In this document: positions 6,104-40,735 of the stretch, piece after piece
How positions within the stretch are numbered: position 1 is the stretch's first letter
How the letters are laid out: each line of letters begins with the position of its first letter
NCBI RefSeq assembly: GCF_003546865.1
Contig: NZ_CP023434.1
Coordinates: forward strand, 1,488,001 to 1,552,000
Direction: 5' to 3'
Source: Suicoccus acidiformans
GTDB lineage: Bacteria; Bacillota; Bacilli; Lactobacillales; Aerococcaceae
Length of the DNA stretch: 64,000 bases
The notes under the pieces: model-generated
The model's input: only the letters and a program-made list of their open reading frames with translations
Database searches by the model: none
Told to the model about the DNA's origin: nothing
Position numbers and translations under genes: made by a program

Positions 6104-6858
6104 CAATCGCAGAAGCCGCTAATGAACTAAAACTTCCCTATCTGAAGGAAAATTACCAACACCTGCTCCTGGAATATACGAGTCGCGGACTGGATTTGGA
6201 AGAAGCCCTCACAGAGATATTGACAGAGGAGGTGGAACAACGTCGAAATCGAAGCTATCAAAGAAGGATTCGACAGGCCAAGTTTAGCCAAAAGAAGTAC
6301 CTGATGGACTTTGACGAGAAAGTGTTTAAGGAAGGTGTTCGCCAACAACTACGCGAATTAAAGACCCTGAATTTTATTCAAGAGAAACAGAACGTCATTC
6401 TTATTGGCAACCCTGGAACAGGGAAGACGCATTTTAGCATTGGTCTTGGCATGGAGGCCTGTCTGCAGAATTATCATGTACAGTTCGTAAATGCCCCAAA
6501 TCTTGTTATTGAATTAAGAGAGGCCGTCACGCAAAGTCAATTTTATCGCTTCAAACAGCGATTAAATAAGGTCGATCTCTTGATTGTCGATGAATTAGGT
6601 TATTTATCCTTTGATGAAGCCGGGGCTGAGCTTCTGTTTAATCTTCTTTCTAATCGGATGGGAAAGGGCTCTACAATGATTACGACGAACCTTACCTTTG
6701 ATCGCTGGCAGGAATGCTTTAAAGACCCGACCTTAACGGGAGCCCTGGTGGATCGTTTAGCCTTTAAGGCGCATGTTGTGGACATGCGAGGGGAGAGTTA
6801 TCGGATGAAGCAGACCAGTGCCTGGAAGGAGGCGCAAGCCAGCCAAAAGGAGGTATGA
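6097..6858 (+). CDS. istB: IS21 helper ATPase IstB
   Basis: A 253-aa AAA+ ATPase of the DnaC/IstB type that controls IstA and target choice. Walker A is GNPGTGKTH near residue 105, Walker B LLIVDELGYL near residue 160, and sensor-like residues follow in TMITTNLTFDRWQECF. Length is typical. The start overlaps the end of istA. Downstream lies the right end of the element with its repeated transposase-binding blocks. The truncated sister copy at 3608-3864 is nearly identical in the C-terminal part. Confidence 0.94.
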   Translation: MLTIAEAANELKLPYLKENYQHLLLEYTSRGLDLEEALTEILTEEVEQRRNRSYQRRIRQAKFSQKKYLMDFDEKVFKEGVRQQLRELKTLNFIQEKQNVILIGNPGTGKTHFSIGLGMEACLQNYHVQFVNAPNLVIELREAVTQSQFYRFKQRLNKVDLLIVDELGYLSFDEAGAELLFNLLSNRMGKGSTMITTNLTFDRWQECFKDPTLTGALVDRLAFKAHVVDMRGESYRMKQTSAWKEAQASQKEV

Positions 6859-37789: not shown

Positions 37790-38974
37790 TTAACCAACAA
37801 ATTCATCAACGACAGTAGCCATCGCTTTGACTGAGATAGTTAAGGCTTGTTCATCCATAAAGAATTTCGGATGATGATGTGGGAAGGCTTCCTGCCCTTC
37901 CGGAGTACAGCCGACATAGAAGAAGGTTGCCGGTATCTTCTCAGCATAGAAAGCAAAGTCTTCTGAGGGGGCTTGCTTAGGGCTTTCCTCCAGCTCAACC
38001 CCTGGCACATTCATATCTTCCAAGGCTTTCCACACTCGCTCAGTCACTCCTTCGTCATTATGAAGCACTGGATAATCATAAGCAAAATCCAAATCAACAT
38101 CCACCTGATACATCTCCCGAATCCCATCAGCAAAGTGATGCATGTATTTCATAATCGTCTCAGATGCCTGCGTGGACATCGTTCGCACATCCCCGTCCAA
38201 TTGCACATGATCGTTAATCACATTCGCTTGGCCCGTCCCATCGAAATTACCAATCGTAAAGACAGCCATATCAAAAGGATCAATCCGTCGACTAATCATC
38301 GACTGAACATTCGTGACAAAAGCAGCCGCTGCCACAATCGCATCATTGGCTTGATGCGGACTCGAGCCGTGTCCAGATTTACCGCGAACCGTCATAGAAA
38401 AGTTCGAGCGACCAGTCTGCACATTCCCCTTACGCACTTGAACTATCCCCGTTTGCGCATTGGTCATGACATGAATACCAAACATCGCCTCCACATCATC
38501 TAATAAACCAGACTCTAGAATCGTCTTCGCTCCACCCGGCGAAACTTCTTCGGCTGGCTGATGAACGATTTTGACCGTGCCTTTAATTTGATCCTTTAAC
38601 TCAATCAGCGACTCAGCCAAAATTAATAAGTACGCAGTATGGCCATCATGCCCACACGCATGCATGACACCATCCACCTTTGATGCAAAAGGCAAACCAG
38701 TATCCTCTTGAATAGGCAAGGCATCAAAGTCCGCCCGCAAAGCAATCGTTGGACCCGCTTGGCCTCCTTGAATCGTCACAACACTCCCATTCATCCCACC
38801 AACGTTTGTCTCAATGCCATCATGCGGCAAATCCTTGTAGAAATCCACAATATATTGCCCCGTCTTCTCTTCCTCAAAAGACAACTCCGGATGCTCATGC
38901 AAATAACGCCGAATATCAATCATCCGCTCCGTCTTCGCATCAATCTTCTCAAACAATTGCTCCTTTAAACTCAT
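37790..38974 (-). CDS. M20-family amidohydrolase (N-acyl amino acid / IAA-amino acid hydrolase type)
   Basis: A 394-aa metallo-hydrolase that cleaves N-acyl amino acids or related amides. DIRRYLHEHPELSFEEEKTG is the family's N-terminal signature. The metal ligands lie in MHACGHDGHTAYLL near residue 103, HQPAEEVSPGGA near residue 139, FGIHVM near residue 166 and the last His in PHHHPKFFMDE. It is monocistronic, with its own terminator. Amidohydrolases of this group include HipO and YxeP-like enzymes, and the true substrate is unknown. Confidence 0.9.
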   Translation of the reverse strand: MSLKEQLFEKIDAKTERMIDIRRYLHEHPELSFEEEKTGQYIVDFYKDLPHDGIETNVGGMNGSVVTIQGGQAGPTIALRADFDALPIQEDTGLPFASKVDGVMHACGHDGHTAYLLILAESLIELKDQIKGTVKIVHQPAEEVSPGGAKTILESGLLDDVEAMFGIHVMTNAQTGIVQVRKGNVQTGRSNFSMTVRGKSGHGSSPHQANDAIVAAAAFVTNVQSMISRRIDPFDMAVFTIGNFDGTGQANVINDHVQLDGDVRTMSTQASETIMKYMHHFADGIREMYQVDVDLDFAYDYPVLHNDEGVTERVWKALEDMNVPGVELEESPKQAPSEDFAFYAEKIPATFFYVGCTPEGQEAFPHHHPKFFMDEQALTISVKAMATVVDEFVG

Positions 38975-39210
38975 ATAAATCCCTTCTTCTATTATTATAT
39001 AATCATGATACGCCTCTTTAAATCAATTGTCTAGGCTCGCCTAAAAATAAAAAGTTTTATAAAATTGCTAATAATAAGCGTCAGGATAAGCCTGAAACCC
39101 AAGTCGGACATAAAACATATGCCCTGCTATGGTTATGAGTTGGAATTCGTAAGGCGGACGCTCGCAAAAAAACACAGTGAAGACCTATCCGGATAATCCG
39201 CAATCTTTTG

Positions 39211-39370
39211 ACTGTCGTGGTAGACACCTACCACGACAGTCTGCACACCCCTGAATGACGTGGTAGACACCTACCACGATAGTCTGCGCACCCCTGAATG
39301 ACGTGGTAGACACCTGCCACGATAGTCTGCACACCCCTGAATGACGTGGTAGACACCTACCACGATAGTC
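39211..39370. repeat. Array of four 43-bp palindromic repeats
   Basis: Units start at 39216, 39259, 39302 and 39345, an exact 43-bp period. Each has the hairpin CGTGGTAG-ACAC-CTACCACG and the linker ATAGTCTGCACACCCCTGAA followed by TGA. The first unit has a perfect 13-bp stem (ACTGTCGTGGTAG and its inverse). The third has CTGCCACG, which breaks one pair. The linkers are nearly identical, so this is not a CRISPR array. No ORF in the surrounding 38975-39823 is convincing; the minus-strand 66-codon frame across the repeats is a repeat artefact. Confidence 0.92.
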
Positions 39371-39629
39371 AACTTCCTGCACCATGCCAAAAACGCTCTC
39401 CTCCAGTAAATAAAGCTACAAAATCAGATCCATGCACCAATTCCACTCAGTTAGCCCACCCATACTAAGTTCAGCTCACCAACAAAAGATCAGCACCTTC
39501 CTCGGATTAAATAAAGATTGATGCCACGGCGGTCGTCGTGGCTTCCTTATCTTAATTTAGAGTTTGTGCCCCAAATTTCATTGAGGGAAAGAAGCGCAGG
39601 CTACGGATATGCCACTTTGACTAATTCTG

Positions 39630-39698
39630 ACTATCGTGGTAGACACCTACCACGATAGTCTGCACACCCCTGAATGGCGTGGTACCCATCCACCACGC
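39630..39698. repeat. Second block of the 43-bp palindromic repeat
   Basis: A unit at 39635 has a perfect 14-bp stem (GACTATCGTGGTAG and its inverse). A degenerate unit follows at 39678 (CGTGGT...ACCACG), again exactly 43 bp later. Between this block and the first lies a GCCACG/CGTGGC hairpin near 39525, unrelated in linker sequence. Confidence 0.9.
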
Positions 39699-39784: not shown

Positions 39785-39816
39785 GCAAAAAACCTACTGC
39801 CTTCCACAGTAGGTTT
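39785..39816 (-). terminator. Terminator of the pyr operon
   Basis: AAACCTACTG/CAGTAGGTTT with a 7-base loop and a minus-strand T-run, just after the pyrD stop codon. Confidence 0.88.
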
Positions 39817-39823
39817 CCACAAA

Positions 39824-40735
39824 TTATGCGTCAAAACGCTTAATGTCTGCTAATATTTCAATGCCTAGTTCATCCATTCGCTTCGGCAAGGCTTCGATAA
39901 TATCAGGTCCGGCCATTGGATTGGCATAATTTACTGAACCGATTTGAACCGCTGTTGCACCAACCATCAACATTTCTAGCACGTCGTCTACAGTTGAAAT
40001 ACCGCCTACGCCGATTACCGGAATATCAACCGTACTAGCAATTTGGTGCACCATACGCAAGGCGATATGCTTCAAGCTTGAGCCGGATAAACCGCCGGTC
40101 ACATTGCCTAGCATTGGTTGGCCGGTTTCAACATTGATGGCCAAGCCGGTCACAGTATTGATTGCGGTAATCGCGTCAGCACCTGCTTCTTCAACTGCTT
40201 TAGCAATAACCGTAATGTCGGTAACATTGGGAGTCAATTTCACGTATAGAGGCACCGTGATAACTGCTTTGACCTTGCGGACTAATTGGGCCACAATATC
40301 GGGATCGGTACCAAAGGTGATGCCGCCTTCTTTAACGTTTGGACAAGATACGTTTAATTCGATAGCTTTCACATTTTCCGCTTGAGTAATTTGCTCACAT
40401 ACGGCGATGTAATCTTCTTCTGTAGAGCCAGCCACACTAGCAATAATCGGCAAGTCGAATTGGGCTAAGAAAGGCAATTTCTCCGCCATAACAACGTCAA
40501 TTCCCGGGTTTTTCAAGCCCACCGCGTTCAAAATACCATCTTTCGTATGAGCATATTTAGGGTCAGGGTTGCCTAGACGCTCTTCTAAGGTCGTACTTTT
40601 GATAACTAATGAGCCGAGGAGGCCGAGGTCATACTTCTCTGAAAGACTTTCACCATAGCCTACACAGCCAGAAGCTGGAATGATTGGATTCTTCAACGTC
40701 ATGCCTGGTAATTGAACTTCTAAACGGTTTGTCAT
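39824..40735 (-). CDS. pyrD: Dihydroorotate dehydrogenase, class 1 (B type)
   Basis: A 303-aa FMN enzyme oxidising dihydroorotate to orotate. The active-site Cys is in ELNVSCPNVKEGG near residue 127; FMN-binding parts are NPIIPASGCVGYG, TAINTVTGLAIN and VIGVGGISTVDD. The sequence type matches the NAD-linked PyrD-B catalytic subunit, which normally works with the iron-sulfur/FAD subunit PyrK. No pyrK lies in this operon, so the partner must be elsewhere or another acceptor is used. It starts directly behind pyrC. Confidence 0.94.
   Translation of the reverse strand: MTNRLEVQLPGMTLKNPIIPASGCVGYGESLSEKYDLGLLGSLVIKSTTLEERLGNPDPKYAHTKDGILNAVGLKNPGIDVVMAEKLPFLAQFDLPIIASVAGSTEEDYIAVCEQITQAENVKAIELNVSCPNVKEGGITFGTDPDIVAQLVRKVKAVITVPLYVKLTPNVTDITVIAKAVEEAGADAITAINTVTGLAINVETGQPMLGNVTGGLSGSSLKHIALRMVHQIASTVDIPVIGVGGISTVDDVLEMLMVGATAVQIGSVNYANPMAGPDIIEALPKRMDELGIEILADIKRFDA

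Follow-up and report, generated by a model that had tools for sequence, protein, structure and literature searches.

Dispersed palindromes in bacterial chromosomes are usually read as REPs moved by RAYTs or as MITEs. The ram sites of RacA, the matS sites of MatP and the sites of Noc are clustered short inverted repeats over a large chromosome domain, bound by one protein, and lox or dif-like sites consist of two arms flanking an asymmetric centre. The enterococci, which fall in the same broad group as the genome studied here, carry EFAR, a modular assembly of palindromic repeats dispersed in the chromosome; to our knowledge, it has neither helical phasing nor four-unit groups, nor dyads that are specific to a genus. 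PMC3733652 labels EFAR of Enterococcus faecalis a MITE. According to PMC2817692, REPs and BIMEs are dispersed extragenic palindromes, often in more than 100 copies, and BIMEs are regularly spaced, alternating in orientation and protein-bound.

Here we analyze a palindromic array in a window of 64,000 nucleotides (bases 1488001-1552000 of a single 2,572,159-bp contig, genome G000), together with the repeat family to which the array belongs. The arrays of this family may well be phased double-stranded sites for a dimeric, sequence-specific putative DNA-binding protein, a reading that we hold tentatively, with belief and doubt nearly in balance.

Results

Anatomy of the array in the window

The array comprises six dyads, starting at 39216, 39259, 39302 and 39345 in a first block and at 39635 and 39678 in a second. 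Steps within both blocks are 43 bp, and the distance from the start of unit 4 to the start of unit 5 is 290 bp. Unit 1, CGTGGT-N8-ACCACG at 39216-39235, has arms extending to 14 bp (39210-39241). Unit 2 follows 43 bp further on (39259-39278), unit 3 (39302-39321) carries a single base change (ACCTGCC), and unit 4 (39345-39364) closes the four-unit group. Unit 5, supported by the sequence and by a half-site profile, opens the two-unit second group, again with 14-bp arms (39629-39660). The rightmost unit, at 39678-39697, has as read from the sequence another centre (CGTGGTACCCATCCACCACG) and arms of only about 7 bp. The six units in exact 43-bp phase within two blocks, as the initial annotation described them, are thus confirmed by the dyad positions. 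Its extended stems of 13-14 bp on the outermost units are found for unit 1, but the right-hand 14-bp stem is that of unit 5 rather than of the short-armed unit 6; the long stems belong to the block-leading units. With up to three mismatches allowed, CGTGGTAGACACCTACCACG matched the window five times vs none in 100 dinucleotide shuffles, unit 6 being too divergent to count. The linker sequence, described earlier as near-constant, indeed had four matches in the window vs none in the shuffles, and the linkers at 39237, 39280, 39323 and 39656 agree with at most one mismatch.

Units 4 and 5 are separated by 270 bp, which contain a second conserved palindrome, recovered by pattern search and by alignment of modules from different places in the genome. 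This core palindrome (AAAGATTGATGCCACGGCGGTCGTCGTGGCTTCCTTATC) lies on the plus strand at 39513-39551, with a hairpin at 39523-39542. Upstream of it is the variable part of the inter-group spacer (39365-39512, plus strand). Downstream come a variable middle of nearly fixed length (39552-39615, plus strand) and a pre-unit motif (39616-39634, plus strand; TTTGACTAATTCTGACTAT in the window).

Both flanking genes are on the minus strand. An M20-family peptidase of 394 aa (37790-38974; ORF and family profile) has its 5' end towards the array, and a 303-aa ORF (39824-40735), which from its sequence and neighbours we take to be dihydroorotate dehydrogenase-like, has its 3' end towards it. Because a terminator-like hairpin follows the latter gene (39787-39816, minus strand; read from the sequence and absent from the list of the terminator scan), transcription from it probably ends short of the array. 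The M20 gene has a promoter-like site at 39033-39005 on the minus strand (a consensus match, with 3 such sites vs 1.6 in shuffles). The array is upstream of this site, not downstream of the promoter as had been proposed.

The repeat family in the genome

Genome-wide, the exact pattern CGTGGT-N8-ACCACG occurs in 156 copies in 2.57 Mb vs a single copy for the reversed control pattern, and all 156 fall in 13 fetched stretches and the window. When near matches in phase were included, the 20 clusters held 206 units, a total in which one unit of L036 figures twice. The genome-wide count, which the initial annotation had suggested as a check, excludes a unit that is unique to the site and shows only random slippage. 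With a half-site profile the number came to 211 dyads, which fall into 45 groups; of these groups, 28 hold exactly four units, and the others hold 1, 2, 3, 5, 6, 10, 11 or 36. The clusters sit between longer ORFs with ordinary products. G000 also contains a second phased row of different sequence (L040:530-720, about 1410530-1410720), in which four TTCCGT...ACGGAA units follow each other at 42, 41 and 42 bp.

The column profile of 194 distinct units gave the consensus ACT-N2-CGTGGT-N8-ACCACG-N2-AGT. Between neighboring units, 154 of 160 intervals are 43 bp, five are 42 bp and one is 44 bp. Between-place identity over 14 separated groups was 91% for the half-sites (inflated, as the units were gathered by their arms), 37% for the centres and 27% for the linkers, the last being what random DNA would show. 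The linkers thus keep their length but not their sequence. Half-sites and spacing that are conserved around freely varying linkers are the pattern of a phased protein-binding array, here in units collected by their arms.

The core palindrome AAAGGTTGATGCCACGG...CCGTGGCTTCC, searched with up to three mismatches, gave 31 forward and 7 reverse matches (controls, 3 and 2). Arrays adjoin 33 of these 38 matches, and a core lies beside 16 of the 20 clusters, the four without one being single rows. The distance from core to next unit is 115-121 bp in 25 of 27 script-listed cores. One exception, at 412 bp, arises from an uncounted unit whose centre is shorter; the other (L041) has no unit on that side. 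With six cores added by hand the list came to 33, of which 27 were aligned. Excluding the L041 row, identity between places in this alignment of modules was 79% for the core, 78% for the pre-unit motif, 73% for the first unit and 39% for each variable part (upstream of the core, over the aligned part of about the last 55 bp).

Occurrence of the family in other genomes

The exact unit or pair pattern was found in 0 of 40 relatives, all of other genera, in 0 of 394 genomes sampled from the order and in 0 of 397 from the phylum (overlapping samples of larger groups). A sequence model, R1, found the array in 0 of 75 other genomes of the bacterial family under stricter filters. The core pattern likewise matched 0 of these 75 genomes and no stretch in a genome contig collection. 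The pair pattern had no match in viral contigs, the window array none in phages and the L040 array none in plasmids; the genome-contig, viral, phage and plasmid collections may omit records of G000 itself. Among the genomes searched, the CGTGGT dyad family thus appears to be confined to one species, and selection is accordingly read from copies within one genome. No earlier description of the CGTGGT-N8-ACCACG repeat was recognized in a literature search made mostly without subscription journals.

The pair pattern did match 10 stretches of the genome contig collection. Many of these contain pairs around GTAG-CGTGGGCATTCCTGCCCACG, mostly in Epsilonproteobacteria, with a spacing fixed by the search pattern. 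GTAG/CTAC stands on both sides in six stretches (L043, L046-L050) and CTAC on one side in L052, and we read these as REPIN-like. Three further stretches (L044, L045, L051) hold single pairs in GC-rich genomes and were set aside as chance or local duplication.

These pairs bear on whether the window family could itself be a REP/BIME family moved by a RAYT, as the BOX/REP-like label of the initial annotation implied. The likeness is real in a loose sense: the units are dispersed, intergenic, palindromic and regularly spaced, and 156 exact copies are a high copy number. However, the 194-unit profile shows ACT-N2 outside the stem where a GTAG-type tag would stand, and the REPIN-like pairs that the pair pattern matched in Epsilonproteobacteria differ in appearance. 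A search for the RAYT/transposase-like gene suggested earlier returned only two short matches to PF01797 (Y1_Tnp) in G000, both at one place (2125255-2125460; L053, L054) with a 72-aa open frame, and no intact RAYT. We give REP/BIME membership almost no credence; BOX was assessed by Rfam scan only.

Analogous rows in related genomes

We ran a generic phased-dyad scan on samples of twelve relatives. The scan is insensitive: it missed the window array, three other stretches of G000 and also G315, which holds 14 exact units of the genus g5 dyad described below. It returned phased rows of other sequence, with periods of 31-52 bp, in two of the twelve (G004 and G011), and none in 400 kb of mononucleotide-shuffled sequence. 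No rows were returned from G012 and G008 (400 kb each) or from G276, G071, G221, G187, G315, G013 and G272 (100 kb each). In G004, GTCCGAT-N11-ATCGGAC recurs every 52 bp in three rows; beside these strictly phased main rows, an irregular row of CTCCGG palindromes (L084:17246) has spacings of 58 and 50 bp. Fourteen rows came from G011, with periods of 31, 40, 41 and 43 bp (among them L091:12290, L094:13508, L096:3671, L096:7224, L101:1431, L102:1982, L104:6001, L104:12674 and L106:14220). This genome holds several different phased-palindrome families, with up to 17 units per row. Two rows with ACAAGC arms and 36/72-bp spacing in G354 (L199:4669 and 4921) are possibly a coding repeat, since the period is a multiple of three.

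G004 belongs to genus g5, where a search for the exact dyad was positive in 12 of 13 genomes; copy numbers ranged from 0 in G374 to 140 in G023 (control, 0). The 23 loci examined (L155-L174, L071, L072, L080) show rows in 52-bp phase. Several loci are orthologous across species, their best-matching flank pieces being 89-93% identical, and row length there varies by whole periods, for example with 4, 2, 4 and 3 units, or 3, 1 and 4.

The main rival explanation is a non-autonomous mobile repeat (MITE or satellite-like): a past or present transposase would have spread the core-plus-dyads module, tandem duplication would have followed, and the arms would be conserved for transposase binding rather than host function. 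The arrays are dispersed and intergenic, as such an element would be, and PMC3733652 classes EFAR of enterococci as MITEs. Moreover, comparing the flanks of the 20 clusters, we found that homology between places begins or fades near the core in several of them, which counts against phased sites in that it fits a mobile module too; sharp shared ends were absent. On the other hand, it is the linkers, not the arms or the spacing, that are randomized between places, which implies that the module copies are old. In addition, the Y1 transposase persists only as the pieces noted above, and several g5 sites are orthologous between species. We therefore consider the mobile explanation unlikely, if still one to be taken seriously, and a mobile or satellite origin is in any case compatible with later function.

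DNA site or RNA hairpin

If the dyads acted as RNA hairpins, changes in one arm should be compensated in the other. Across the six arm pairs of 174 distinct units, broken pairs were present and compensated changes numbered zero; in g5, 0 of 560 arm-pair cells were compensated and 14 were broken. Inside the centre, pair 9:10 was complementary in 14 of 174 units vs 27.3 expected from within-place shuffles (0 of 2000 as low), and pair 6:13 in 63 vs 77.5 (3 of 2000 as low). Pair 7:12 was slightly below expectation (49 vs 53.9) and 8:11 was not below it. By contrast, the outer pairs exceeded expectation in the same shuffles: -1:20 with 61 vs 45.1 (0 of 2000 as high), -2:21 with 66 vs 53.6 (13 of 2000 as high) and, slightly, 5:14 with 158 vs 156.3 (122 of 2000). 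An unstratified test gave larger negative z-scores; we relied on the within-place shuffles. The 56 distinct centres of g5 were also strongly asymmetric, against shuffles not stratified by place. With no compensation in the six arm pairs, and with two centre pairs less often complementary than in the shuffles even though two outer pairs are more often so, the dyads are better explained as double-stranded half-sites than as an RNA hairpin.

A transcribed element was the other possibility raised initially, as an RNA element downstream of the M20 promoter; more generally, the rows could be transcript-end hairpins that stop transcription or protect mRNA. Folding of the window stretch is much stronger than that of shuffles (z -8.66), but this is what palindromic DNA gives in any case. 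The core was listed as terminator-like by the scan, and g5 rows are enriched at convergent gene pairs (15 of 23, each orthologue being counted on its own, vs 62 of 386 in the background). Nevertheless, G000 itself shows no convergent bias (4 of 20 vs 24 of 115), the arms are uncompensated in both genera, and the centres are partly biased against pairing. At gathering scores, Rfam had no match in the window. For 27 module sequences RNAalifold gave a covariation term of 0.01; of 14 core pairs, only 2 had changed once on both sides, in each case in the L041 row, whose core has no unit after it. Together with the position of the array on the wrong side of the promoter-like site, these results speak against the RNA element, and transcript-end hairpins seem improbable.

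The asymmetric centres also recall rows of tyrosine-recombinase core sites. The arm-centre-arm layout would suit them, with centres of 8 bp in G000 and 11 bp in g5 and some positions less self-complementary than shuffles. However, about 211 direct repeats would delete the intervening DNA if active, and in many groups the centres vary from unit to unit, though they are identical in units 1, 2, 4 and 5 of the window. We regard recombinase sites as very improbable.

Helical phase of the periods

Eight listed periods (43, 42, 52, 31, 43, 41, 40 and 41 bp) lie near whole helical turns, and 10 of 100,000 random sets were as good; the list was compiled after the rows had been seen, with seven of the eight periods from two genomes. 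Collapsed to four periods, it was equalled by 200 of 100,000 random sets. The list omitted a further 41-bp row of G011, the off-phase 36-bp row of G354 and the irregular 58/50-bp row of G004. Once the 41-bp and 36-bp rows were included, 54 random sets in 100,000 equalled the list, and a set collapsed to five rows, the 36-bp one among them, was equalled by 3,468 in 100,000. We thus take the helical phasing of row periods as no more than a hint.

Genes near the arrays and their distribution on the chromosome

Searching Pfam with 40 proteins in or near the array flanks (with 10 rechecked or added; the window's own two flanking proteins are outside this set), we found no gene type common to the flanks and no Cas family at or above cut-off. 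Nor did a candidate binding protein emerge, the 40 proteins being ordinary. The protein-binding array proposed in the initial annotation is the option favoured by the half-sites, the spacing and the uncompensated arms. The positions of the arrays showed no preference for promoters: 13 of 20 lie between codirectional genes, 4 between convergent and 3 between divergent ones, vs 75, 24 and 16 in the background.

M20-family peptidases make up 4 of about 40 array-adjoining genes (the window gene at 37790-38974, L031:1159-2313, L037:4466-5647 and L041:9663-10961). The genome has 15 M20 matches, 14 of them over cut-off. Assuming about 2400 genes, 0.25 would be expected beside arrays (P ~1e-4, uncorrected and post hoc), and the M20 neighbours vary in side and orientation relative to the arrays. 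Separately, a 279-aa frame at about 6391-6684 in the window recurs at ten more places in G000 with identical Bac_DnaA profile scores; presumably it is an IS21-type helper ATPase.

Arrays are absent from 2031.7-2572 kb and 0-390 kb of G000, which is 36% of the chromosome, with dnaA at 3.45 kb. The probability of this origin-side gap is 0.0015 if the 20 clusters are independent, 0.017 for 14 merged groups and 0.05 for 11, so that statistically the gap is weak. GC skew of the fetched stretches was positive to 953 kb, negative at 1321-2036 kb and positive in a 3-kb piece at 2123 kb. Compared with this skew, core orientation was independent of the replication arms, and replication polarity was rejected.

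Discussion

The preferred reading is that of phased sites for a protein. Double-stranded half-sites with enforced spacing are favoured, and we therefore suppose a dimeric, cooperatively assembling protein. A module usually comprises a core palindrome and, about 118 bp further on, a row of most often four dyads, one per 43 bp or about four helical turns. Each dyad would be a double-stranded site for one dimer of a sequence-specific protein. The 43-bp spacing would place each dimer on almost the same face of the helix as the one before and so permit cooperative assembly, and the core may be a second contact or a nucleation site for the same complex. Rows could gain or lose whole periods through recombination between repeats. 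As to purpose, chromosome organization or insulation between transcription units is our guess.

A wider proposal would be that several genera of this bacterial family each keep their own chromosome-wide system of dyad arrays in helical phase; the dyad would be specific to the genus and served by a dedicated dimeric protein that evolves fast. Such arrays would form an unrecognized class of nucleoprotein scaffold, with sites here missing from the origin third. We regard this proposal as doubtful and offer it as speculation. Should a protein be found, the arrays would offer a simple, countable system for repeated sites that shape a chromosome and for the joint change of site and binder between genera. 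If there is no protein, the rows still show long palindromic satellites persisting at orthologous bacterial sites.

Compared with known systems, the window array shares with CRISPR a palindromic repeat at fixed spacing. Its linkers, however, are near-copies with at most one mismatch rather than unique spacers, and it recurs in 20 clusters. With EFAR the family has modular dispersed palindromes in common, a likeness at the level of general description. The RacA ram, MatP matS and Noc sites resemble it as scattered clusters of short inverted repeats, whereas the window family has a longer bipartite dyad, 43-bp rows and a core palindrome. REP, BIME and REPIN elements, as described in PMC2817692 and PMC3733652, are likewise dispersed extragenic palindromes of high copy number and regular spacing. 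The CGTGGT family differs from them in having no GTAG tag at the stem foot, a bipartite arm with two free bases, strict phasing at 43 bp with groups that often number four units, a companion core palindrome and no intact RAYT. Without REP signatures, it keeps its exact spacing while its linkers randomize, and the same layout is built from other sequences in two relatives.
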